From Actinomycetota bacterium (GTDB lineage Bacteria; Actinomycetota; Acidimicrobiia; Actinomarinales; Actinomarinaceae), in NCBI GenBank assembly GCA_014239265.1, contig JAAZZH010000002.1, positions 1 to 49,553 of the forward strand: a stretch of 49,553 bases of DNA, written 5' to 3'. This document shows, in pieces, positions 6,722-16,947 of the stretch. Both the position numbers and the translations under genes were made by a program. The number at the start of each line of letters is the position of its first letter. The stretch's first letter is position 1. Under the pieces are notes generated by a model. The model was not told where the DNA came from. It saw only the letters and a list, made by a program, of their open reading frames with translations, and made no database searches.

Positions 6722-7222
6722 GTGATAAAAAATCGGTTTGTAACAGCATTAGTAGTTCTATTCTTTGCTACCGCATGCTCAACCGGAACAGATTCAAGTG
6801 TTGTTTCTTTGTCAGCCGAATCAACAACTACTTCGACTATAGCTGAAGAAGACTATCCAATTGTTTTAACTAAGTGCTTAAACGAAGAAAAGGGTTATGA
6901 CATAGTAACTCCCTTTGATATACAAGATTTAAAAACAACAATTAGTCAGTTAAGCACAAGCAAAGATGAAGAATTACAGCTAGGAGAGGATGTTAATTAC
7001 TGTATTAACAAATATAATCTTTGGTCAGATTCATCTTCACAAAACCCAGAAGAGCTTGCAAAATTATATGATGAAAATCTTGAATTAGCTAAATGTTTAA
7101 GAGAAAAGGGGATAAACGTGCAAGACCCAACCCAACAAGAGCCTAAGCTTGATTTAAGTGGATTAAAAAGTTCAAAAGATAGTATTACCCCATTGTTACA
7201 AGAGTGTGGTTGGGAGAAATAA
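6722..7222 (+). CDS. Lipoprotein with two Cys-Cys units (paralogue 1)
   Basis: A 166-residue predicted lipoprotein (GTG start; signal peptide ending in FFATAC, lipid Cys19), then a Ser/Thr-rich linker and two similar units. Unit 1 has Cys52 and Cys94; unit 2 has Cys125 and Cys162 with KCLREKGINVQDP. It is clearly paralogous to the proteins at 9844, 10451 and 14556, and closest to the one at 10451: both have YNLW after the second Cys and an NPxE segment before unit 2. It is placed at the end of the pfp run and convergent with the histidine kinase gene. Function unknown. The paired Cys suggest disulfide-stabilised extracytoplasmic domains. Confidence 0.75.
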   Translation: MIKNRFVTALVVLFFATACSTGTDSSVVSLSAESTTTSTIAEEDYPIVLTKCLNEEKGYDIVTPFDIQDLKTTISQLSTSKDEELQLGEDVNYCINKYNLWSDSSSQNPEELAKLYDENLELAKCLREKGINVQDPTQQEPKLDLSGLKSSKDSITPLLQECGWEK

Positions 7223-7226
7223 GTAT

Positions 7227-8495
7227 TTAAAAACTAACTATAAACTTAGCTCCACCAAGGTCAGACTTACCCACGGTAATCTTCCAACCATATTTTGAAA
7301 CAATATTTTTTACAATACTCAAACCAAGACCTTTACCACCAATATTTCTTGTTCTTGATTCATCTTCTTGCCAAAAGGGAGTAAATATTAAATCATAATT
7401 TTCTGGATGAATTCCAACACCATCATCCTCAATGATTATTGAGGGAGCTTCATCCACTATGTCGGCACTAATTATTACTTTGTTCGACTTAAATTTTTCT
7501 GCATTCCCAATTAAATTATTAAGCATCAATTTAAGAATTTCTTGGTTTGAATCAACCATTATTTCTACATTATTTTTGAAATCAACATCGGTACCTTTAA
7601 TAGTTTTCTTAATTAAATCATTCAGGAGAATTTTCCCATCAGTACCACCACTTTTAGTAGAGGTCTCAAGGATTAATAAAGCTTCTATTATTGACTGGAT
7701 TTCAATCACATCTTCTTCTATCCCAATGAGAGTTTCCTCGTCTGTATTATTTTGTTTTTTCAACTTCTCGATTTGTAATTTTAAACTTGTTAAAGGTGTT
7801 TTTAGTTCATGTGAGGCATTTGAAATAAATTGTTTCTGACTTATTGAACTTATGTGAACCTTCTCAAGAAGAGAGTTAAATGTCGAAATCAACTTTCCAA
7901 TTTCATCATTGCTTTTTACATCGTCGAGTTTTTCCATTTTGTTTAACGGTTCAAATTTAGATATTTTTTTGATAGATCGACTTATAGGTCTTAACGCTAT
8001 TTCTGTAGAAATTAAAATTCCTAAAACGACAAATACTGAAGCCAAAAGATAACTCAGCACAAAAAATCTTTCTAGGCCCTCAACTGCATTCCTAGAAGTT
8101 GACTCACTAAAGCCGATAACAATACTTACTTTTTTGTCTACACTTTCGGTTTTTATAAAATTTAAATTATTTTCATTTATTGCAAATTGATTTTTTGCTA
8201 AATTGTAATCATCAATGAGACGTGGGGGAAAAAAGCTATATTCCCTTATGAGTTTTCCACTTTGTTTATCATATACAAATACAAAATAATCTCCAAAACG
8301 TGGAGTATTTCTAAGGTTTAACTTTTTATAATCTTTTTCTAATCGTTCTGCTAAATTAGCTCTACCATCTTCTAGTGTTGTTCTGTATCTAACTTCAGCT
8401 ACTTCTTTTAAAATTTCTGGAGCAACAAAAAATCCACCACCAAGGATTAAAAGAGTTAACAATATAATTTTTGACCTTATTCCCACTCTCTTCAT
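7227..8495 (-). CDS. Sensor histidine kinase
   Basis: A 422-residue membrane kinase with TM1 at about 8-28, an extracytoplasmic sensor of about 110 residues, TM2 at about 143-167, HAMP at about 168-218, HisKA with phospho-acceptor His229 in SNASHELKTPL, and HATPase_c with an N box (LIGNAEKF), DDGVGI and GKGLGLSI. Its ATG directly follows the response-regulator stop codon, so the pair forms one unit read leftwards. It is divergent from the secreted protein at 9301 and the exporter operon, which are likely targets. The signal is unknown. Confidence 0.93.
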   Translation of the reverse strand: MKRVGIRSKIILLTLLILGGGFFVAPEILKEVAEVRYRTTLEDGRANLAERLEKDYKKLNLRNTPRFGDYFVFVYDKQSGKLIREYSFFPPRLIDDYNLAKNQFAINENNLNFIKTESVDKKVSIVIGFSESTSRNAVEGLERFFVLSYLLASVFVVLGILISTEIALRPISRSIKKISKFEPLNKMEKLDDVKSNDEIGKLISTFNSLLEKVHISSISQKQFISNASHELKTPLTSLKLQIEKLKKQNNTDEETLIGIEEDVIEIQSIIEALLILETSTKSGGTDGKILLNDLIKKTIKGTDVDFKNNVEIMVDSNQEILKLMLNNLIGNAEKFKSNKVIISADIVDEAPSIIIEDDGVGIHPENYDLIFTPFWQEDESRTRNIGGKGLGLSIVKNIVSKYGWKITVGKSDLGGAKFIVSF

Positions 8496-9170
8496 TTAAT
8501 TCCACCTATACCCATAACCACGAACAGTTTTAATGCGGCCATTTAAGTTAAAAGGTTTAAGTTTTTTTCTCAGATATCCTATGTAAACTTCAACTTTATT
8601 AATATCTTCTTCAACTGGGTATAAAATTTCCCAGATTTCCTCCAATAGTTCATTTTTTGTGACAATATTTCCATTATTCATTACTAAGAAAGCAAGTAGG
8701 TCTAGTTCTTGCTTGGTTAGTTCAATTTCAAGATCCTTACTTGTAACTTTTCTTGCATTTAAATCAATCTTTAAATCTTGAAACTCCAACAAGGCTTTTT
8801 CGTGTCCATCTGTTTTTAAAAGTCTGCGAATTCTTGCCAGCAGTTCAACTGTAGAGAAAGGCTTTTTCAAGTAATCATTTGCACCAGTATCCAGCCCTTC
8901 TTCGACATCGTATTCACCACTCTTTGCTGTCAACATTATTATCGGAGTTGTCACCCCAATCTCTCTAACCTTTGCACAGACTTTATAACCATTCATTTTT
9001 GGCATCATGATATCTAAAATAACAAGATCGGGTTGGTCTTCAATGATTTTGTAATATCCAGATTCCCCATCAAAAGATTGATCAACAAAGTACCCCTCAT
9101 TGACTAAGGACTGTTTTACTAATTCTGATATTTTCTTATCATCTTCAACTAAAAGTATTTTTTTAACCAC
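8496..9170 (-). CDS. OmpR/PhoB-family response regulator
   Basis: A 224-residue regulator with a receiver domain (acidic pocket VEDD near 9-11, phospho-acceptor Asp53 in ILDIMMPK, Lys103 in LKKPF) and a C-terminal winged helix ending in RIKTVRGYGYRW, which is typical of the OmpR/PhoB class. It uses a GTG start. It is co-transcribed with the kinase and divergent from 9301. The intergenic region holds repeats suited to this regulator class. Confidence 0.94.
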   Translation of the reverse strand: MVKKILLVEDDKKISELVKQSLVNEGYFVDQSFDGESGYYKIIEDQPDLVILDIMMPKMNGYKVCAKVREIGVTTPIIMLTAKSGEYDVEEGLDTGANDYLKKPFSTVELLARIRRLLKTDGHEKALLEFQDLKIDLNARKVTSKDLEIELTKQELDLLAFLVMNNGNIVTKNELLEEIWEILYPVEEDINKVEVYIGYLRKKLKPFNLNGRIKTVRGYGYRWN

Positions 9171-9222
9171 AACTTAATAATGACAATATAAATTTATTTA
9201 TCAAGCGATTGGATTTATTAAC

Positions 9223-9242
9223 CTCAGGAACCTCACAGGTTT
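9223..9242 (+). promoter_or_regulatory. Candidate response-regulator operator, copy 1
   Basis: CTCAGGAACCTCACAGGTTT matches 17 of 20 positions of the element at 11071-11090 upstream of the exporter operon. It contains AACCTCA twice, 9 bp apart. It lies between the divergent regulator gene and the secreted protein gene. Confidence 0.55.
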
Positions 9243-9243
9243 T

Positions 9244-9259
9244 TAAGGATACCCTAAGG
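9244..9259 (+). promoter_or_regulatory. TAAGG direct repeat with 11-bp period
   Basis: TAAGG at 9244-9248 and 9255-9259 repeats at one helical turn, as OmpR/PhoB-class sites often do. It ends about 10 bp before TGCTACAAA (candidate extended -10 at 9270-9275). CTAAGGT also follows the copy-2 element, at 11097-11103. Confidence 0.4.
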
Positions 9260-9300
9260 TTCCAACTGCTACAAAAGAGTATGAAAAAGAAAGGACGAAT

Positions 9301-9780
9301 ATGAAAAAATTATTATTAGGAATAGGCGTTTTTGGACTTGCTTTCGGTGTAGGTATCGTTGGTATCTCTTATGCTGCAGAAATTCCTATGGATGAAAAGG
9401 TATTTATTCAAGATGAGGTTTCTACGGATAAAGACAACAAACCCAATCTGCTAGAAGAGATTCTACTAGGGCTAGTTGAGGAAGGTACCTTATCAGAAGA
9501 TCAGGCTGACACCATATTGAACACAATGGAAGAAAAAAAAATTGAGATAAAAGCAGAAAGAGATGAAATCAAAAATCTAATTAGAGAAATGCTTGAAGAT
9601 GAAGAAATTACTTTGTCAGAACTGGATTCAGTAGATAGTGTTAATCAAGAGAAAATAGATCGATTTAAACAACACTATTCCCAAGAGCTTCAAGACGGGG
9701 TTATAACTCAAGAAGAGTTTAAAGAAAACATGATAGGACGTCACAAAAAAGGACATCATAAGTTGAAAGGCAATAGGTAA
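9301..9780 (+). CDS. Secreted acidic helical protein, possible envelope sensor or chaperone
   Basis: A 159-residue protein with a signal peptide (about 1-26, cut near SYAAE), an acidic helical region containing LVEEGTLSEDQADTILNTME (a pattern common in small secreted helical proteins with short helix-turn-helix repeats), and a basic, His-rich tail (GRHKKGHHKLKGNR). The AAAGGA ribosome site lies 5 nt before ATG. It is divergent from the two-component genes and carries the shared upstream element, so it is probably a member of that regulon. A role like that of CpxP or Spy is only an analogy. I do not recognise a named family with confidence. Confidence 0.7.
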   Translation: MKKLLLGIGVFGLAFGVGIVGISYAAEIPMDEKVFIQDEVSTDKDNKPNLLEEILLGLVEEGTLSEDQADTILNTMEEKKIEIKAERDEIKNLIREMLEDEEITLSELDSVDSVNQEKIDRFKQHYSQELQDGVITQEEFKENMIGRHKKGHHKLKGNR

Positions 9781-9831
9781 CTAGTTAAGTATTTGTGTGT
9801 TGGTTTTCTCCCTAGCCCAATACACATTTAC

Positions 9832-9837
9832 TAAAAT
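9832..9837 (+). promoter_or_regulatory. -10 box for leaderless start at 9844
   Basis: TAAAAT followed by 6 nt and then ATG 9844. This places the expected transcription start at the start codon. Confidence 0.5.
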
Positions 9838-9843
9838 GTAACT

Positions 9844-10419
9844 ATGAAAAAAACAAAAGTAATATTCCTAGTTTTTGTATTAGTCTCTTCTTGTTCCTCA
9901 TCAGATGACTCTCAAGGCGTTATTTCTAAAAATGATTTATCGAATGATACAACAGTGACAACGATTAAAGAAGAGGTCGTTCAAGAGATAATTTCACCCG
10001 AAGATGCTCAATTTTTACTAGCTAGATGCTTAAGAGACAAGGGATACGACATTAATGATCCAAAAAATGGTGAAAGTTTACGAAGTGTTTTACAGCCAGT
10101 GTTTTTAGCTACTGATCAAAAAGGTAGGGATGAACTTTTTGAGACAATTCAGATATGTGCTGAAGAAAATGATATTCCACTTGGCAATAATGCAGACTTT
10201 GAAAATCCAGAAGATGTAGCGGATAGACTAGACACAGAGCTTGAGTTTGCACAATGCTTAAGGGAAAAAGGCATAGAGGTTGAAGACCCTAGCACTGAAA
10301 GACCCCTTAGGCCTATACTTGTTGGCCTCGTACAGTCTGGACAATACCTAGAAGACCAAATTAGAGAAGCTGCAGGAGAATGTTTTGATGATCTAGAACT
10401 TGAACCACCACAAGGTTGA
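9844..10419 (+). CDS. Lipoprotein with two Cys-Cys units (paralogue 2)
   Basis: A 191-residue lipoprotein: signal peptide to VSSC (lipid Cys17), linker, unit 1 with ARCLRDKGYDINDP (Cys62) and Cys105, and unit 2 with AQCLREKGIEVEDP (Cys138) and Cys180. The Cys-Cys spacing is 43 and 42 residues. The two units look like an internal duplication. It has its own apparent leaderless promoter. It resembles uncharacterised actinobacterial proteins with a CMREHG..PDP motif. The function is unknown, but its position between the secreted protein and the exporter operon links it to that system. Confidence 0.78.
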   Translation: MKKTKVIFLVFVLVSSCSSSDDSQGVISKNDLSNDTTVTTIKEEVVQEIISPEDAQFLLARCLRDKGYDINDPKNGESLRSVLQPVFLATDQKGRDELFETIQICAEENDIPLGNNADFENPEDVADRLDTELEFAQCLREKGIEVEDPSTERPLRPILVGLVQSGQYLEDQIREAAGECFDDLELEPPQG

Positions 10420-10439
10420 GGTTAAAGCTACATATAATT

Positions 10440-10445
10440 TATAAT
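10440..10445 (+). promoter_or_regulatory. -10 box before the 10451 lipoprotein
   Basis: TATAAT with 5 nt to ATG 10451, near-leaderless. A second TATAAT at 10433-10438 would give a short leader. Confidence 0.45.
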
Positions 10446-10450
10446 TTTAT

Positions 10451-11050
10451 ATGTATAAAAAAGCTTCATTAATTTTGGTATTATTTACAGCTTGTTCATT
10501 ATTCCAACAAGAAGAACAATCTGTTGTTTCTGTTGCAGATACCGATAAAGGAAAAGAAGCAATTGCTCTTGGAGTTGAGCTTACAGACGAACAAGAAGAA
10601 ATTTCAGATGAAGATGCCCCACTAGTCCTTGTTCAGTGTGTAAATGAATCTGGTTATAAATTTAAAGAGCCAAGAAATTTTTTAGATTTATATACAACTA
10701 TCGCTTCCTATTTTGAAACTTTAACTACTGAAGAACAAGAGGAACTATGGAGTAAAATAGAAGACTGTGCTTTGGAGTATAATTTATGGGGAGTTGCAGA
10801 CGAGAATCAATTTGAGAACCCAGCTGAAACCGGGAAAGAGTTAGATAGAGCACTTCATATAGCAACTTGCTTTAGAGAGAATGGATACCCGAAGGTCCCT
10901 GATCCTAATTACTTTAATAGAGATGTGAACCTTGACGCATATACAACCGAAGAATGGGATTTTAGTGAAGATGACCCAATTGTTCAGACATGGCAAGCCT
11001 GTGAGGAAACATTGCCAGAAGAGTTGAAAGGTGAGGAGTGGGATGATTAA
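10451..11050 (+). CDS. Lipoprotein with two Cys-Cys units (paralogue 3)
   Basis: A 199-residue, strongly acidic lipoprotein: signal peptide to LFTAC (lipid Cys15), unit 1 with VQCVNESGYKFKEP (Cys63) and Cys106, unit 2 with ATCFRENGYPKVPDP (Cys140) and Cys184. It shares YNLW and FENPxE segments with the paralogues at 6722 and 9844. It lies just upstream of the exporter adaptor gene. A ligand-binding or regulatory role at the outer face of the membrane is inference only. Confidence 0.77.
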   Translation: MYKKASLILVLFTACSLFQQEEQSVVSVADTDKGKEAIALGVELTDEQEEISDEDAPLVLVQCVNESGYKFKEPRNFLDLYTTIASYFETLTTEEQEELWSKIEDCALEYNLWGVADENQFENPAETGKELDRALHIATCFRENGYPKVPDPNYFNRDVNLDAYTTEEWDFSEDDPIVQTWQACEETLPEELKGEEWDD

Positions 11051-11070
11051 GAAACTTACAAAAATAATTT

Positions 11071-11090
11071 CTCAGAAAACTTACAGGTTT
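11071..11090 (+). promoter_or_regulatory. Candidate response-regulator operator, copy 2, exporter promoter
   Basis: CTCAGAAAACTTACAGGTTT, 17 of 20 identical to 9223-9242. TAAACT at 11093-11098 is a plausible -10 just after it, so a regulator bound here would occupy the -35 region of the exporter promoter. Confidence 0.55.
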
Positions 11091-11113
11091 AATAAACTAA
11101 GGTAACTAGAACA

Positions 11114-12700
11114 ATGATAAAAAATATATTTAAATTAAAAAACCTGTATGTGTTAATTACTATAACTGCTCTTGCTTATGGAGGGTATTATTTTGGTACT
11201 CAAAACACTGATGCTACGACAAGTAATAAAACCCTAGAATTAACAACCGTAAGTATTCAACAAGGAGATTTATCAAAAAAAGAAGAATACAATGGGACAC
11301 TAAGGCAAACCGACAGCAAAATTCTTAAAACTCCTATCGCTGGAGTGGTCACTTATCTTCCAGAAGAAGGAACAGTAGTAAATTATGGAGAAATCCTTTT
11401 TGCTGTCGACAACAAGCCTGTAATTTTAGTTGAGGGATCGATACCTTTTTACAGGACACTAGATTTAAATTCAAAGCCTGGACCAGATGTTTTACAACTC
11501 GAAAAAGCACTACAGTTTTTGGGTTATTCTTCTGAAGATTTTATTCCAGATGAGACATTTGATGAGATAACTTCGACCATGTTAAATTCTCTTTATCTTG
11601 ACTATAAAATTGATACTAAATCAGAAATAACTCCGACAGAACAAGTTGCAATCAACTTAAAAGAGTCAGCCGTTGAAGCTATTGAGCAGACAATTGAAAA
11701 TGGAGGAACAACCTTAACACAAGTCAACGATAAAAAGAAAAAGCTAGATGATGCCAAAGAAACAGCAATTGAGGAAAGCACTGCATGGAAAGCAGCAGAT
11801 ACTGCTATCAAGAATGCAGAACAAAGCTTGACATTATATAGAGACGCATCAAATCCAAAGACAAAAGAAAAGACTGCTGATGGAACTTTAGATGGTGCCA
11901 TTGAGGACTTAGAGCAGTCAATTGAAGAGCAAAAAAGAATCAAAAATTTAGAAAAAGGAAAAGAGTCAGGAATTGATGCCACAGAGGCATTAGCAATTGA
12001 AACAGCTCAAAAGGCTTATGACGACACATTAAAAGCATATAATGATGGTGTCGATCAGGTGGCAGAATTAGCCAAAGAGAAAGAAGAGCTTGAGGAAATC
12101 ATACTTTCGTCTAAATCTGAAACTTTCTCACCTACTAATGCTTATGCATCTAACTCCCCACTTATTGTTGGATCATATATAAACAATCTTGGTTCTGCGG
12201 TTGGACTTAATTCTCAACTTTACAATATATCTTCTATCGGAATCGAAGTTGTATTTCAGGTAGATGCAACAGATCAGGAGACTGTTTCCTTAGGTGATAG
12301 TGTAGAAATTGAACTACCAACGGATGAAAGGGTCCCAACAATAATTACCTTCATAGACCAAGTTGTCACACAAACGCAAGCTGGTGATTTCATAGAAGTG
12401 ACACTAGATGTTCTTAATCCAGAATCTATCGAAGTTTACGACCAAGCTCCAGTAAAAGTATTTGTTACAACTGAAGTATCTGAGAATGTTTTATATGTAC
12501 CCGTTAATGCCTTAATAGCACTAGCTGAAGGTGGGTATGCAGTAGAAATATTCAGTGGAGATGTAGAGGGTGAAGTATTTGATGGAGATTCTGGAACTGA
12601 CACCACTTATGTTGCAGTTGAAATAGGTGTGTTTACTGATGGATTTGTAGAAATTATTGGAAATTTTCAAAAAGGACAATTGGTAGTTGTACCTAGATGA
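11114..12700 (+). CDS. HlyD/MacA-like efflux adaptor with peptidoglycan-binding domain
   Basis: A 528-residue membrane-fusion protein. The N-terminal TM is at about 10-26, followed by a split lipoyl-like segment with GVVTYLPEEGTVVNYGEILF, a peptidoglycan_binding_1-like domain (PGPDVLQLEKALQFLGY) and a long coiled coil (about 175-335, rich in Lys/Glu/Ala). The C-terminal beta-barrel region resembles MacA-type adaptors (ENVLYVPVNALIAL). The gene overlaps the ATPase gene by 4 nt. Monoderm Actinobacteria use such adaptors with MacB-type ABC exporters. The peptidoglycan-binding domain suggests anchoring to the cell wall. The substrate is unknown. Confidence 0.82.
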   Translation: MIKNIFKLKNLYVLITITALAYGGYYFGTQNTDATTSNKTLELTTVSIQQGDLSKKEEYNGTLRQTDSKILKTPIAGVVTYLPEEGTVVNYGEILFAVDNKPVILVEGSIPFYRTLDLNSKPGPDVLQLEKALQFLGYSSEDFIPDETFDEITSTMLNSLYLDYKIDTKSEITPTEQVAINLKESAVEAIEQTIENGGTTLTQVNDKKKKLDDAKETAIEESTAWKAADTAIKNAEQSLTLYRDASNPKTKEKTADGTLDGAIEDLEQSIEEQKRIKNLEKGKESGIDATEALAIETAQKAYDDTLKAYNDGVDQVAELAKEKEELEEIILSSKSETFSPTNAYASNSPLIVGSYINNLGSAVGLNSQLYNISSIGIEVVFQVDATDQETVSLGDSVEIELPTDERVPTIITFIDQVVTQTQAGDFIEVTLDVLNPESIEVYDQAPVKVFVTTEVSENVLYVPVNALIALAEGGYAVEIFSGDVEGEVFDGDSGTDTTYVAVEIGVFTDGFVEIIGNFQKGQLVVVPR

Positions 12701-13377
12701 AATCAAAACAAAAAACTGTAATTGCTCTAAAAAATATATCTAAAATCTATGAAGGGCCACCACAAGTTAAGGCTATAGACGAACTTTCTTTAGAAATTCA
12801 GGAAGGTGACCTTGTTTCAATAGTTGGTCAATCCGGTAGCGGCAAGTCAACACTACTCAATATGATCGGGCTATTAGATACAGTAACAGAAGGTACTGTT
12901 GAGATAGAGGGTCAAGATATTTCAAGTCTTTCGGATAATGAGTTATCAAAATTTAGGGGCGAAAAAATTGGGTTTATATTTCAAAGTTTTTTTCTACTCC
13001 CCGGTCTCACTGCTCAGGAAAATGTCGCAGAAGGCTTGCTCTATCAAGGCATTAAAAGAGAAGAAAGATTAAAAAAAGCAGCAGATGTACTTGAAGATGT
13101 TGGTTTAGGAGACAGAATAACACATCAACCAAAAGAACTTTCTGGAGGACAGCAACAAAGGGTTGCTATTGCAAGAGCACTAGTTCAAGATCCGGCATTT
13201 ATACTTGCGGACGAGCCAACTGGAAACTTAGACAAAGAATCTGGAATGAATATTCTCAATATTCTTAAAGAATTAAACAAACAGGGAAAAACTGTAGTCA
13301 TGATTACTCACAATCAAGAGCATGCAAAGAAATTTAAAAAAGTTATAACTCTAACTGACGGAAAGATCGTTGCCTAA
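12697..13377 (+). CDS. MacB/LolD-type ABC exporter ATPase
   Basis: A 226-residue ABC ATPase: Walker A GQSGSGKST, Q-loop FQSFFLLPGLTA, signature LSGGQQQRVAIARAL, Walker B FILADEPTGNLD and H-loop ITHNQ. The LLPGLTAQENV and ADEPTGNLD text is typical of the MacB/LolD/FtsE-like class. It overlaps the adaptor gene (ATGA) and is followed directly by the permease gene. It drives the mechanotransmission-type export predicted for this operon. Confidence 0.94.
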   Translation: MKSKQKTVIALKNISKIYEGPPQVKAIDELSLEIQEGDLVSIVGQSGSGKSTLLNMIGLLDTVTEGTVEIEGQDISSLSDNELSKFRGEKIGFIFQSFFLLPGLTAQENVAEGLLYQGIKREERLKKAADVLEDVGLGDRITHQPKELSGGQQQRVAIARALVQDPAFILADEPTGNLDKESGMNILNILKELNKQGKTVVMITHNQEHAKKFKKVITLTDGKIVA

Positions 13378-14559
13378 ATGAAACAGAGATTAAAAATTAA
13401 AGACCTTTTTTTTGTTGCATTATATGGAGTAAGAGCAAGAAGAGGTAGAGCAGCTCTTACCTCAATCGGCATAGGTATCGGGATTGCAGCAATAGTAGCA
13501 GTAACAGGTATTTCAGCATCTGGTCGTGCTGACCTATTAGCAACTCTTGAATCTCTTGGTACAAACCTAATAAAAGCTTCTCCACAAGCAGGCTTTTTTG
13601 GAACTCAAGAAAAACTACCTGATGGTGTTGTGGGTATGGTTGAAAGGATAGGTCCAGTAGAAGAAGTTACTTCTACAACTCAAACAGATTTAATCGTAAG
13701 ACGCAGTGATTTTATTTCTGAGTTCGAAGGCGGTGGAATATCGACTATAGTCACAAGTCCAGAACTCCTTCAGGTTGTTGGGGGAAACTTAATTGAAGGA
13801 AGATTTATACAGGATGGTTTATCAAATATTCCAGTTACTGTTTTAGGTAGTGTTACAGCTTCTAGGTTAGGAATAAATACCTTAGAAACTCCTACAAAAA
13901 TTTTAATTGGTAATGAATGGTTTGGAGTTGTAGGGATTTTAGATGAGCTAAAAATTCATCCAGACTTAGACAGATCTGTATTTATTGGATATGGGGTTGC
14001 TAAAACTCTTTTCGACATAGACAAAGAACCAACAACAATTTATGTTAGAGCAAATCCTACGTACATTGAAGATGTTGTTGAAGTAATAGCACCCTCAATG
14101 AATCCAGAAAATCCAGATCAAGTTCAAGTTTCTAGACCCTCTGATGCGCTAGAGGCACAAGAGGCTGCTGATGCAGCGTTTACAAATTTACTTCTTGGCC
14201 TTGGTTCTGTTGCGTTACTCGTCGGAGGGGTAGCTATTGCAAATGTCATGGTTATGTCAGTTCTTGAACGAAGGATGGAGATTGGTGTTAGGAGGTCTAT
14301 TGGAGCAACTCGTAGAGAGATAAGATATCAATTTTTATTAGAGAGCATTGTTTTATCTGGAATAGGAGGGCTTGTAGGAGTAGTGTTGGGAACCGGTGTA
14401 ACCTTGGGTTATACAAATTATACAGATATAGTCTTTTCGATACCTGTTAGCCAAGTTTTAGGTGCAATCCTATTGGCCTTATTAATTGGGGCAATTTCAG
14501 GAGTTTATCCAGCTATTAAGGCTTCGAAAATACAACCAGCAGAAGCAGTTAGAAAATGA
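13378..14559 (+). CDS. MacB-like ABC permease
   Basis: A 393-residue permease: an N-terminal TM after RARRGRAALTSIGIGIGIAA, a periplasmic core (about 45-265) and three C-terminal TM helices in an FtsX domain with ERRMEIGVRRSIGATRREI and a GVYPAIKASKIQPAEAVR end. This is the classic MacB architecture. It starts right after the ATPase stop and overlaps the next lipoprotein gene by 4 nt, so the operon is adaptor-ATPase-permease-lipoprotein. Confidence 0.92.
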   Translation: MKQRLKIKDLFFVALYGVRARRGRAALTSIGIGIGIAAIVAVTGISASGRADLLATLESLGTNLIKASPQAGFFGTQEKLPDGVVGMVERIGPVEEVTSTTQTDLIVRRSDFISEFEGGGISTIVTSPELLQVVGGNLIEGRFIQDGLSNIPVTVLGSVTASRLGINTLETPTKILIGNEWFGVVGILDELKIHPDLDRSVFIGYGVAKTLFDIDKEPTTIYVRANPTYIEDVVEVIAPSMNPENPDQVQVSRPSDALEAQEAADAAFTNLLLGLGSVALLVGGVAIANVMVMSVLERRMEIGVRRSIGATRREIRYQFLLESIVLSGIGGLVGVVLGTGVTLGYTNYTDIVFSIPVSQVLGAILLALLIGAISGVYPAIKASKIQPAEAVRK

Positions 14560-15089
14560 GAAATATAATATTAACTTTTACATTGGTTTTCATCACAGCT
14601 TGCACAATTGGGGGTGAGGAAGCTTCGAAAGGTGTAGCAACTATAGAAAGTACAACACGAATCGAAGTTGTTGAAGTTGAAAAAACTTTTGAAGAGGGCG
14701 TTTTAGATTTTGCACAATGTATGAGAGAAGAAGGTATAAACTTTCCTGACCCGAGCTTCGATATTGATGGAAACCCTGAGTTTGATGATTTAAATATAGA
14801 AAATGAAGAGGAATTCGAAGAAGCTTTTGTTAATTGTGAAGATATTTTAAGAGAAGCCCTTCCAGAACAATTTGATCTCGATCCGGAGGTTGAAGCAGCC
14901 TTAGTTGATTCTTCTCTAGAATTTTCGCAATGCATGAGAGATGAAGGAATTGATTTTCCAGACCCCAAACCTGGTGAATTCGGATTTTTTGCCTTCAGAG
15001 ACGCAGATATTGATTTTGAATCAGAAGATGTTCAAAAAGCATTTGAAATATGTCAACCTGAAAATCCTCTTGAAAATCTTGATGACTAA
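14556..15089 (+). CDS. Lipoprotein with two Cys-Cys units (paralogue 4), exporter operon
   Basis: A 177-residue, very acidic lipoprotein: signal peptide to FITAC (lipid Cys16), unit 1 with AQCMREEGINFPDP (Cys55) and Cys94, unit 2 with SQCMRDEGIDFPDP (Cys126) and Cys166. It has the cleanest version of the CMRExGxxFPDP motif in the window and is translationally coupled to the MacB-like permease (ATGA overlap). Uncharacterised actinobacterial proteins with this motif often accompany adaptor and MacB-type exporter genes, which supports a shared function with the exporter. Confidence 0.8.
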   Translation: MRNIILTFTLVFITACTIGGEEASKGVATIESTTRIEVVEVEKTFEEGVLDFAQCMREEGINFPDPSFDIDGNPEFDDLNIENEEEFEEAFVNCEDILREALPEQFDLDPEVEAALVDSSLEFSQCMRDEGIDFPDPKPGEFGFFAFRDADIDFESEDVQKAFEICQPENPLENLDD

Positions 15090-16473: not shown

Positions 16474-16947
16474 TTAAACGCCAGATTCAAAATAGGAAGG
16501 GGCAGTTACGGCTATTGTTAACCAGCAATCATTTATTGGGTTCTCAGGACATTTGTCTAATTGAAACACCCAGGTCACTTCAAAATAGGAATTATTACTG
16601 GCTAATATTTTGATCTCATAATGTTCATTATCTTCAGTTTCAACAGTTTTGGTAAAGCTATATTCTTTTAGATCAAGTATTGAATTGTATGGTTCTGATA
16701 GGAGCATATTCCTAAAATTCTCTTTTGGACCTGTTATTTCTTTATTATCAGGATGTGCGTAGTTCCAAATAGTATCTAGTGAATTTTGTGGAGAATTAGA
16801 AAAGTTTTGGTAACTTTCAAGAATTTCTGTGAGGATGGTATTAGATTCAACAATAGACGCTTCAGCAACAGTATCAATATTTTTTTCAGATACACTAGTT
16901 GAACAGCTAAGAAATATTAGAAGTATTAAGTATTTCTTAACTTGCAA
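16474..16947 (-). CDS. DUF4864-like lipoprotein
   Basis: A 157-residue predicted lipoprotein with TTG start, signal peptide and LIFLSC lipobox. The segment DTIWNYAHPDNKEITGP followed by FRNMLLSEPYNSIL matches the DUF4864 pattern, and the WVFQLDK..CWLTIAV end also fits. The TTG overlaps the stop of a 31-codon small ORF upstream, which suggests translational coupling. Function unknown. Confidence 0.7.
   Translation of the reverse strand: MQVKKYLILLIFLSCSTSVSEKNIDTVAEASIVESNTILTEILESYQNFSNSPQNSLDTIWNYAHPDNKEITGPKENFRNMLLSEPYNSILDLKEYSFTKTVETEDNEHYEIKILASNNSYFEVTWVFQLDKCPENPINDCWLTIAVTAPSYFESGV

Follow-up and report, generated by a model that had tools for sequence, protein, structure and literature searches.

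A two-unit lipoprotein family linked to MacAB-type transporter operons of Actinomycetota and usually present in four copies in Candidatus Actinomarina

Results

Gene content of the locus

Here we describe a locus at positions 6722 to 15089 of a 49,553-nucleotide stretch of DNA (contig JAAZZH010000002.1 of GenBank assembly GCA_014239265.1, hereafter the window), in which genes for four related lipoproteins, LP1 to LP4, lie around a two-component system, a secreted acidic protein and a transporter composed of an adaptor, an ATP-binding cassette (ABC) ATPase and a permease. The window has a G+C content of 34% and comes from a member of the marine actinobacterial group Candidatus Actinomarina; the source assembly comprises 1.05 Mb in 96 contigs, is 84% complete and holds the window on contig 22. 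A first-pass annotation of this DNA, made from the sequence alone, had placed four lipoprotein reading frames at 6722, 9844, 10451 and 14556, and all of them begin there (Table 1). The other six genes also have the identities that it had assigned to them: a kinase with its regulator, a secreted protein of acidic character, and the adaptor, ATPase and permease of the transporter. Furthermore, the coupling that it had noted between one lipoprotein gene and the permease is seen in the start codon of LP4 (14556), which overlaps the permease stop (14559).

Table 1. Features of the locus in window coordinates (aa, amino acids; nt, nucleotides; bp, base pairs; AF2, AlphaFold2; pLDDT, predicted local distance difference test)
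Feature	Coordinates	Strand	Remarks
LP1, two-unit lipoprotein, 166 aa	6722..7222	+	derived Actinomarina clade; VVSL motif nt 6800-6811
Sensor histidine kinase	7227..8495	-	HAMP, HisKA, HATPase_c; orthologue in 3/35 genus genomes
OmpR/PhoB-type response regulator	8496..9170	-	divergent from operon
Candidate regulator operator	9223..9263	none	AGG at 9226, 9237, 9246, 9257 (steps 11, 9, 11 bp); TAAGG repeated at 11 bp
Secreted acidic helical protein	9301..9780	+	homologues in few genomes
LP2, two-unit lipoprotein, 191 aa	9844..10419	+	VISK motif nt 9919-9930
LP3, two-unit lipoprotein, 199 aa	10451..11050	+	directly upstream of adaptor; VVSV motif nt 10523-10534
MacA/HlyD-type adaptor	11114..12700	+	degenerate PG_binding_1 region and long insertion
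ABC ATPase, MacB/LolD type	12697..13377	+	domain match
MacB/FtsX-type permease	13378..14559	+	MacB_PCD and FtsX
LP4, canonical two-unit lipoprotein, 177 aa	14556..15089	+	VATI motif nt 14634-14645; AF2 core pLDDT >90; without PDB fold match

The lipoproteins form a new family with two cysteine-containing units

Every pair among LP1 to LP4 aligns as homologues (BLASTP E 4e-20 to 1e-5), and the common plan proposed for them is borne out: each has a lipobox cysteine, a linker, two units and four further cysteines. The spacing of the two cysteines within units 1 and 2 amounts to 42/37, 43/42, 43/44 and 39/40 residues in LP1 to LP4, respectively, exactly the range of 37 to 44 residues given before, and unit 1 of LP1 (CLNEEKGYDIVTP) deviates from the motif C-[LMVF]-x-[ED]-x-G-x-DP that had been assigned to the units. 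The two units are themselves homologous, as judged by profile-profile comparison with hhalign (99.5% probability, E 3e-22). Across 211 family sequences the four structural cysteines show zero substitutions, with gaps at the ends only, and the arginine two residues past the third of them is also invariant in an alignment of 69 sequences. An attempt to derive the disulfide pairing from the co-loss of cysteines was abandoned, as these end gaps offer no substitutions to compare.

In the AlphaFold2 model of LP4 (mean pLDDT 83) a mainly helical core is built from blocks with pLDDT above 90, and the model of a second family member has the same helix order at lower confidence. Because these models show one helix per cysteine, each unit is read as a predicted helical hairpin. 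Foldseek searches against the PDB (E <= 0.001) gave no match for the LP4 model or for the second, weaker model. No Pfam family was matched above chance level, whether by the window lipoproteins or by larger collections of 69 and 64 family members; NCBIfam gave at most scattered weak matches of single members, none over a curated cut-off, PADLOC gave none, and profile searches of PDB sequences returned only weak lipoprotein signal-peptide matches and chance ones. A cold-shock domain suggested for LP1 (E 0.002) was rejected, as it lies below the cut-off and is not common to the other lipoproteins. In public annotation, family members are called "hypothetical protein", and no description of the family or of its operon was found in the open-licence literature. 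The lipoprotein family is new in that it is undescribed in the databases and open-licence literature searched.

The lipoprotein accompanies a MacAB-type transporter

The permease carries MacB_PCD (PF12704, E 2e-17) and FtsX (PF02687, E 1e-20), both over the cut-off, and is homologous to solved MacB and to the Streptococcus pneumoniae permease 5xu1 (E 1e-21); the genome has no second close homologue of this class. Together with the MacA/HlyD-family adaptor encoded alongside, this makes the transporter one of the MacAB type. In the window adaptor, HlyD_3 stays below threshold (19.7 versus 22.2 bits), while 9 of 17 aligned homologues match it (best E 6e-8). The peptidoglycan-binding domain with which the adaptor had been credited is present as PG_binding_1 in 15 of the 17 aligned adaptors, whereas the window copy scores below the Pfam cut-off (14.7 versus 23 bits). 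A long insertion in the window adaptor resembles a coiled coil, as judged from its sequence.

For an estimate of linkage that does not start from the lipoprotein, 80 loci of this class of permease were collected by permease similarity alone, the seeds coming from loci with the lipoprotein; exclusion of four Actinomarina loci left 76. The lipoprotein is encoded at 68 of these, directly upstream of the adaptor in 65 cases and in exactly one copy in 66. Of the eight loci lacking it, six (L098, L103, L107, L130, L135, L151) start where a contig does, and the other two, L140 and L159, are exceptions that are either real or divergent. When the search was seeded with the lipoprotein instead, the family was found in at least 31 of 396 Actinomycetota genomes, and the adaptor-ATPase-permease set adjoins it at 33 of the 42 loci examined outside the genus. 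In annotated Streptomyces and Actinomyces plasmids the order is a divergent kinase and regulator followed by a "hypothetical protein", a "peptidoglycan-binding protein", an ABC ATPase and an ABC permease. The family also occurs in 4 of 151 genomes of a group centred on a metagenome-assembled genome labelled Chloroflexi. Apparent lipoprotein-adaptor fusions at L036 and L041, which resembled long adaptors in a list of reading frames, were dismissed, since the two proteins are read in different frames and the adaptor starts at the end of the lipoprotein. The co-occurrence with MacB-like operons in other genomes that the first-pass annotation had called for is present in both searches, and the link between lipoprotein and transporter is real and general in Actinomycetota.

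A short motif in the linker

The linker between the lipid-bearing cysteine and the first unit is rich in serine, glycine and threonine and modelled with low confidence. It contains, mostly 8 to 10 residues past the cysteine, a V-A-S-L-like motif, seen in the window and in the linkers of L036 to L167, which had escaped the earlier annotation. The strict form occurs in 54 of 113 sequences outside Actinomarina, compared with a mean of 0.5 and a maximum of 3 after shuffling, and in 50 of 82 within it, compared with 2.3 and 8; all four window lipoproteins have looser forms. None of the eight family members without a nearby transporter (L044, L045, L081, L084, two each at L085 and L087) has the strict motif. 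The resulting association with transporter proximity is suggestive only, as these eight members are also the most divergent.

Four copies in Actinomarina

Four copies are special to Actinomarina, and one copy is the rule elsewhere. The family is retained in 31 of 35 genomes of the genus, usually in four copies and in the order LP1-LP2-LP3-adaptor-ATPase-permease-LP4; in some genomes (G008, G020) LP4 is joined by just two copies upstream of the adaptor, and G014 appears alike from its coordinates. In a phylogenetic tree, LP1 to LP3 fall together in a single derived clade with a long branch, for which long-branch effects are possible, and the slowly evolving LP4 groups with the canonical single-copy proteins. 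The suggestion that four paralogues mark an actively used system holds only in the sense of retention across the genus.

Two-component system and predicted operator

Both partners of the two-component system are intact by domain content, with HisKA and HATPase in the kinase and with REC and Trans_reg_C, the combination of OmpR/PhoB-type regulators, in its partner. The Actinomarina order has been published as being without an identifiable two-component system (PMC7771536); the intact system at 7227-9170, found also in G002, G015 and L090, is a counter-example. Within the genus the locus does not regularly include it, with a kinase orthologue present in only 3 of 35 genomes. Two HisKA kinases were found in the whole genome, the second at G000:C11:30358-30555 within an open frame of 231 aa. 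Outside Actinomarina, a two-component system lies within 7 kilobases (kb) at 49 of the 76 permease-seeded loci, mostly in divergent orientation, and 27 are without one.

In 33 intergenic regions between regulator and operon, 53 five-base direct repeats were found at a spacing of exactly 11 bp, compared with a mean of 6.9 and a maximum of 23 in shuffled sequences (z = 13.3). This spacing is as expected for sites of OmpR/PhoB-type regulators and marks a predicted operator; the repeats were absent from the earlier annotation. The repeat region of the window (9223-9263) is well conserved in L090 and L008. Weaker peaks were observed at 15 and 21 bp.

Accessory features

Close homologues of the acidic protein (9301-9780) occur only in the genus-mates G002 and G022, with weak ones in two other genomes of the class, G040 (near the kinase) and G045; L090 carries the acidic protein together with the regulator. 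Since the protein accompanies the locus only in part, it was rejected as a constant component, and we regard it as accessory. A fifth small putative lipoprotein (16474-16947, minus strand) lies outside the LP family and stands beside LP4 in several genus-mates (L046, L047, L050, L051). Scans for sigma-70 promoters and terminators gave no signal above shuffles.

Discussion

The lipoprotein as a putative fourth transporter subunit

The partner of the lipoprotein is, judged from these sequence patterns, most likely the transporter rather than the kinase, because the lipoproteins are kept in 31 of 35 Actinomarina genomes and the kinase in 3. Since retention follows the transporter and not the kinase, and since 27 of 76 loci have no two-component system nearby, we take the lipoprotein as a fourth subunit, probably an unrecognised part of a widespread cell-surface pump. 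The first-pass view of the lipoproteins as exporter partners is thus favoured by the patterns of linkage and loss; the binding or immunity role for a wall-active or peptide compound that it attached to them is plausible by analogy with YknWXYZ, AS-48EFGH and SpMacAB. To the reading of the locus as a four-component MacAB-like system, in which the lipoprotein serves as an accessory subunit of the outer leaflet for clearing or exporting envelope-active compounds, we assign a probability of about one half.

In such a system, the MacB-like permease, the ATPase and the MacA-like adaptor, which in most relatives bears a peptidoglycan-binding domain, would act with the dedicated lipoprotein at the actinobacterial cell surface. 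The lipid-bearing cysteine would tether the lipoprotein to the outer leaflet, the V-A-S-L-like motif in the disordered linker may be the docking site for the transporter, and the two helical-hairpin units, with one invariant cysteine per helix and probably locked by disulfides, would form the working head. The most likely task of the lipoprotein would then be to pick up envelope-attacking compounds, amphipathic or peptide in nature, at the membrane surface and hand them to MacA/MacB, the direction of transport presumably being outward, or else to gate the pump in the way that YknW acts on YknXYZ. Where a two-component system is present, its regulator would activate the operon from the promoter region that the two share, by binding to the direct repeats spaced at 11 bp. 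Actinomarina would have duplicated the lipoprotein into the canonical LP4 and the derived LP1 to LP3, presumably for a wider range of ligands or for mixed assemblies. The family with its tandem units and invariant cysteines, the operon linkage, the repeats and the motif enrichment can all be read at the sequence level. The most economical role for the lipoprotein would be to capture envelope-active compounds at the outer leaflet.

Several observations weigh against this proposal. The permease profile derives from loci with the lipoprotein, so that the figure of 68 in 76 applies to permeases of this class and not to MacB homologues at large, the more distant of which, if without a lipoprotein, lie outside the sample. 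Some lipoprotein homologues, sometimes two per contig, are encoded away from any such transporter (L044, L045, L081, L084, L085, L087), and the lipoprotein fold can therefore work without one. LP1 to LP3 are much diverged and may differ in function, and no biosynthetic cluster or known resistance gene points to a substrate.

Among the alternatives, we consider it unlikely, if less so than the other two, that the lipoprotein is a sensor accessory of the kinase, as CseA is of CseC, either binding a signal or using its cysteines to report on the state of the envelope or on redox conditions, with the transporter as no more than the output. The frequent and mostly divergent two-component systems (49 of 76 loci) fit this idea, as do CseA and AfsQ3, which are lipoproteins of Streptomyces two-component systems (PMC9739842), and L081, where lipoprotein, regulator and kinase occur without a transporter. 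However, 27 loci have no such system nearby, 32 of 35 Actinomarina genomes lack the kinase while 31 keep the lipoproteins, and the lipoprotein gene sits inside the transporter operon, directly upstream of the adaptor.

An immunity-type module, in which the lipoprotein binds and neutralises a bacteriocin-like peptide in the manner of LanI-type lipoproteins and the ABC part expels it, appears rather improbable. The combination of lipoprotein, ABC transporter and two-component system resembles known peptide immunity modules, and MacB-type transporters protect against SDP and AS-48 (PMC5985334); yet the annotated loci examined (Streptomyces and Actinomyces plasmids) showed no recognisable genes for peptide biosynthesis, and a genus with streamlined genomes has kept the system. 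This explanation is a narrower form of the four-component one and inseparable from it here.

Marginally less probable still is that the lipoprotein is cargo, with the MacB-like complex acting on it in LolCDE fashion and the V-A-S-L motif serving as the signal for extraction and release to the wall or medium, for mechanical flexing, or for passing the lipoprotein and its bound ligand on towards the wall-anchored adaptor. MacB would then serve a Lol-like purpose in bacteria that are regarded as having a single membrane. The common architecture of MacB and LolCDE (PMC5985334), the membrane-proximal motif at a near-fixed distance from the lipid-bearing cysteine and the rule of one lipoprotein per operon would agree with this reading, but the hosts are regarded as monoderm and are not known to have a membrane to which the lipoprotein could be delivered, the operons showed no LolA-like carrier, and a docking motif would look identical.

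Overall, a dedicated and so far undescribed lipoprotein is a near-constant companion of one class of MacAB-type transporter across the Actinomycetota, and it goes under the label "hypothetical protein" in Streptomyces, Amycolatopsis and Nonomuraea, too. A candidate partner protein, a short motif and a predicted operator are now available for testing in cultivable laboratory strains. Our results also suggest that resources go into protecting the envelope in a minimal actinobacterium of the ocean, some strains of which still have the two-component system.

Comparison with known systems

The nearest functional precedent for a fourth subunit would be YknWXYZ of Bacillus, which likewise combines an adaptor, a separate ATPase, a MacB-type permease and a fourth dedicated membrane-associated protein and does so without TolC; YknW modulates the assembly of YknXYZ (PMC4887032), and the complete system protects against the SDP toxin (PMC4887032, PMC5985334). 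YknW is, however, an integral membrane protein of the Yip1 family, whereas here an unrelated two-unit lipoprotein without Pfam match is found, often with a two-component system adjacent. YknXYZ, AS-48EFGH and SpMacAB stand as precedents for peptide resistance (PMC5985334, PMC5768738). SpMacAB (Spr0693-0694-0695) of the Gram-positive Streptococcus pneumoniae is also MacAB-like and has its ATPase and permease as separate proteins, the latter being 5xu1, which the window permease matches; it differs in being a three-gene operon, for which the available text of its description mentions no lipoprotein (PMC5768738). MacAB-TolC of E. coli shares the permease and adaptor families and is under two-component control by PhoPQ (PMC5985334). 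Unlike in MacAB-TolC, TolC is absent here, the ATPase has its own gene and a lipoprotein is added.

In resistance modules of the BceAB-BceRS and VraFG-GraRS type, the genes for an ABC transporter and a two-component system likewise go together, the target being peptides that act on the envelope; these systems have a BceB-type permease with more transmembrane helices and neither adaptor nor lipoprotein, whereas the locus described here has a MacB-type permease and an adaptor. LolCDE is similar in its MacB-type architecture and, possibly, in acting on a lipoprotein, but it has two different permeases and an outer-membrane destination, while here the V-A-S-L motif alone hints at recognition near the lipid. 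CseA-CseBC of Streptomyces also ties a lipoprotein to an envelope-stress two-component system (PMC9739842), but its module has no transporter, and CseA is likened here by its role. For MacAB-type systems without TolC, the role of adaptors and extra subunits has been named as an open question (PMC5985334). The locus described here is such a MacAB-type system of bacteria without TolC, and the new lipoprotein family is its distinctive part.

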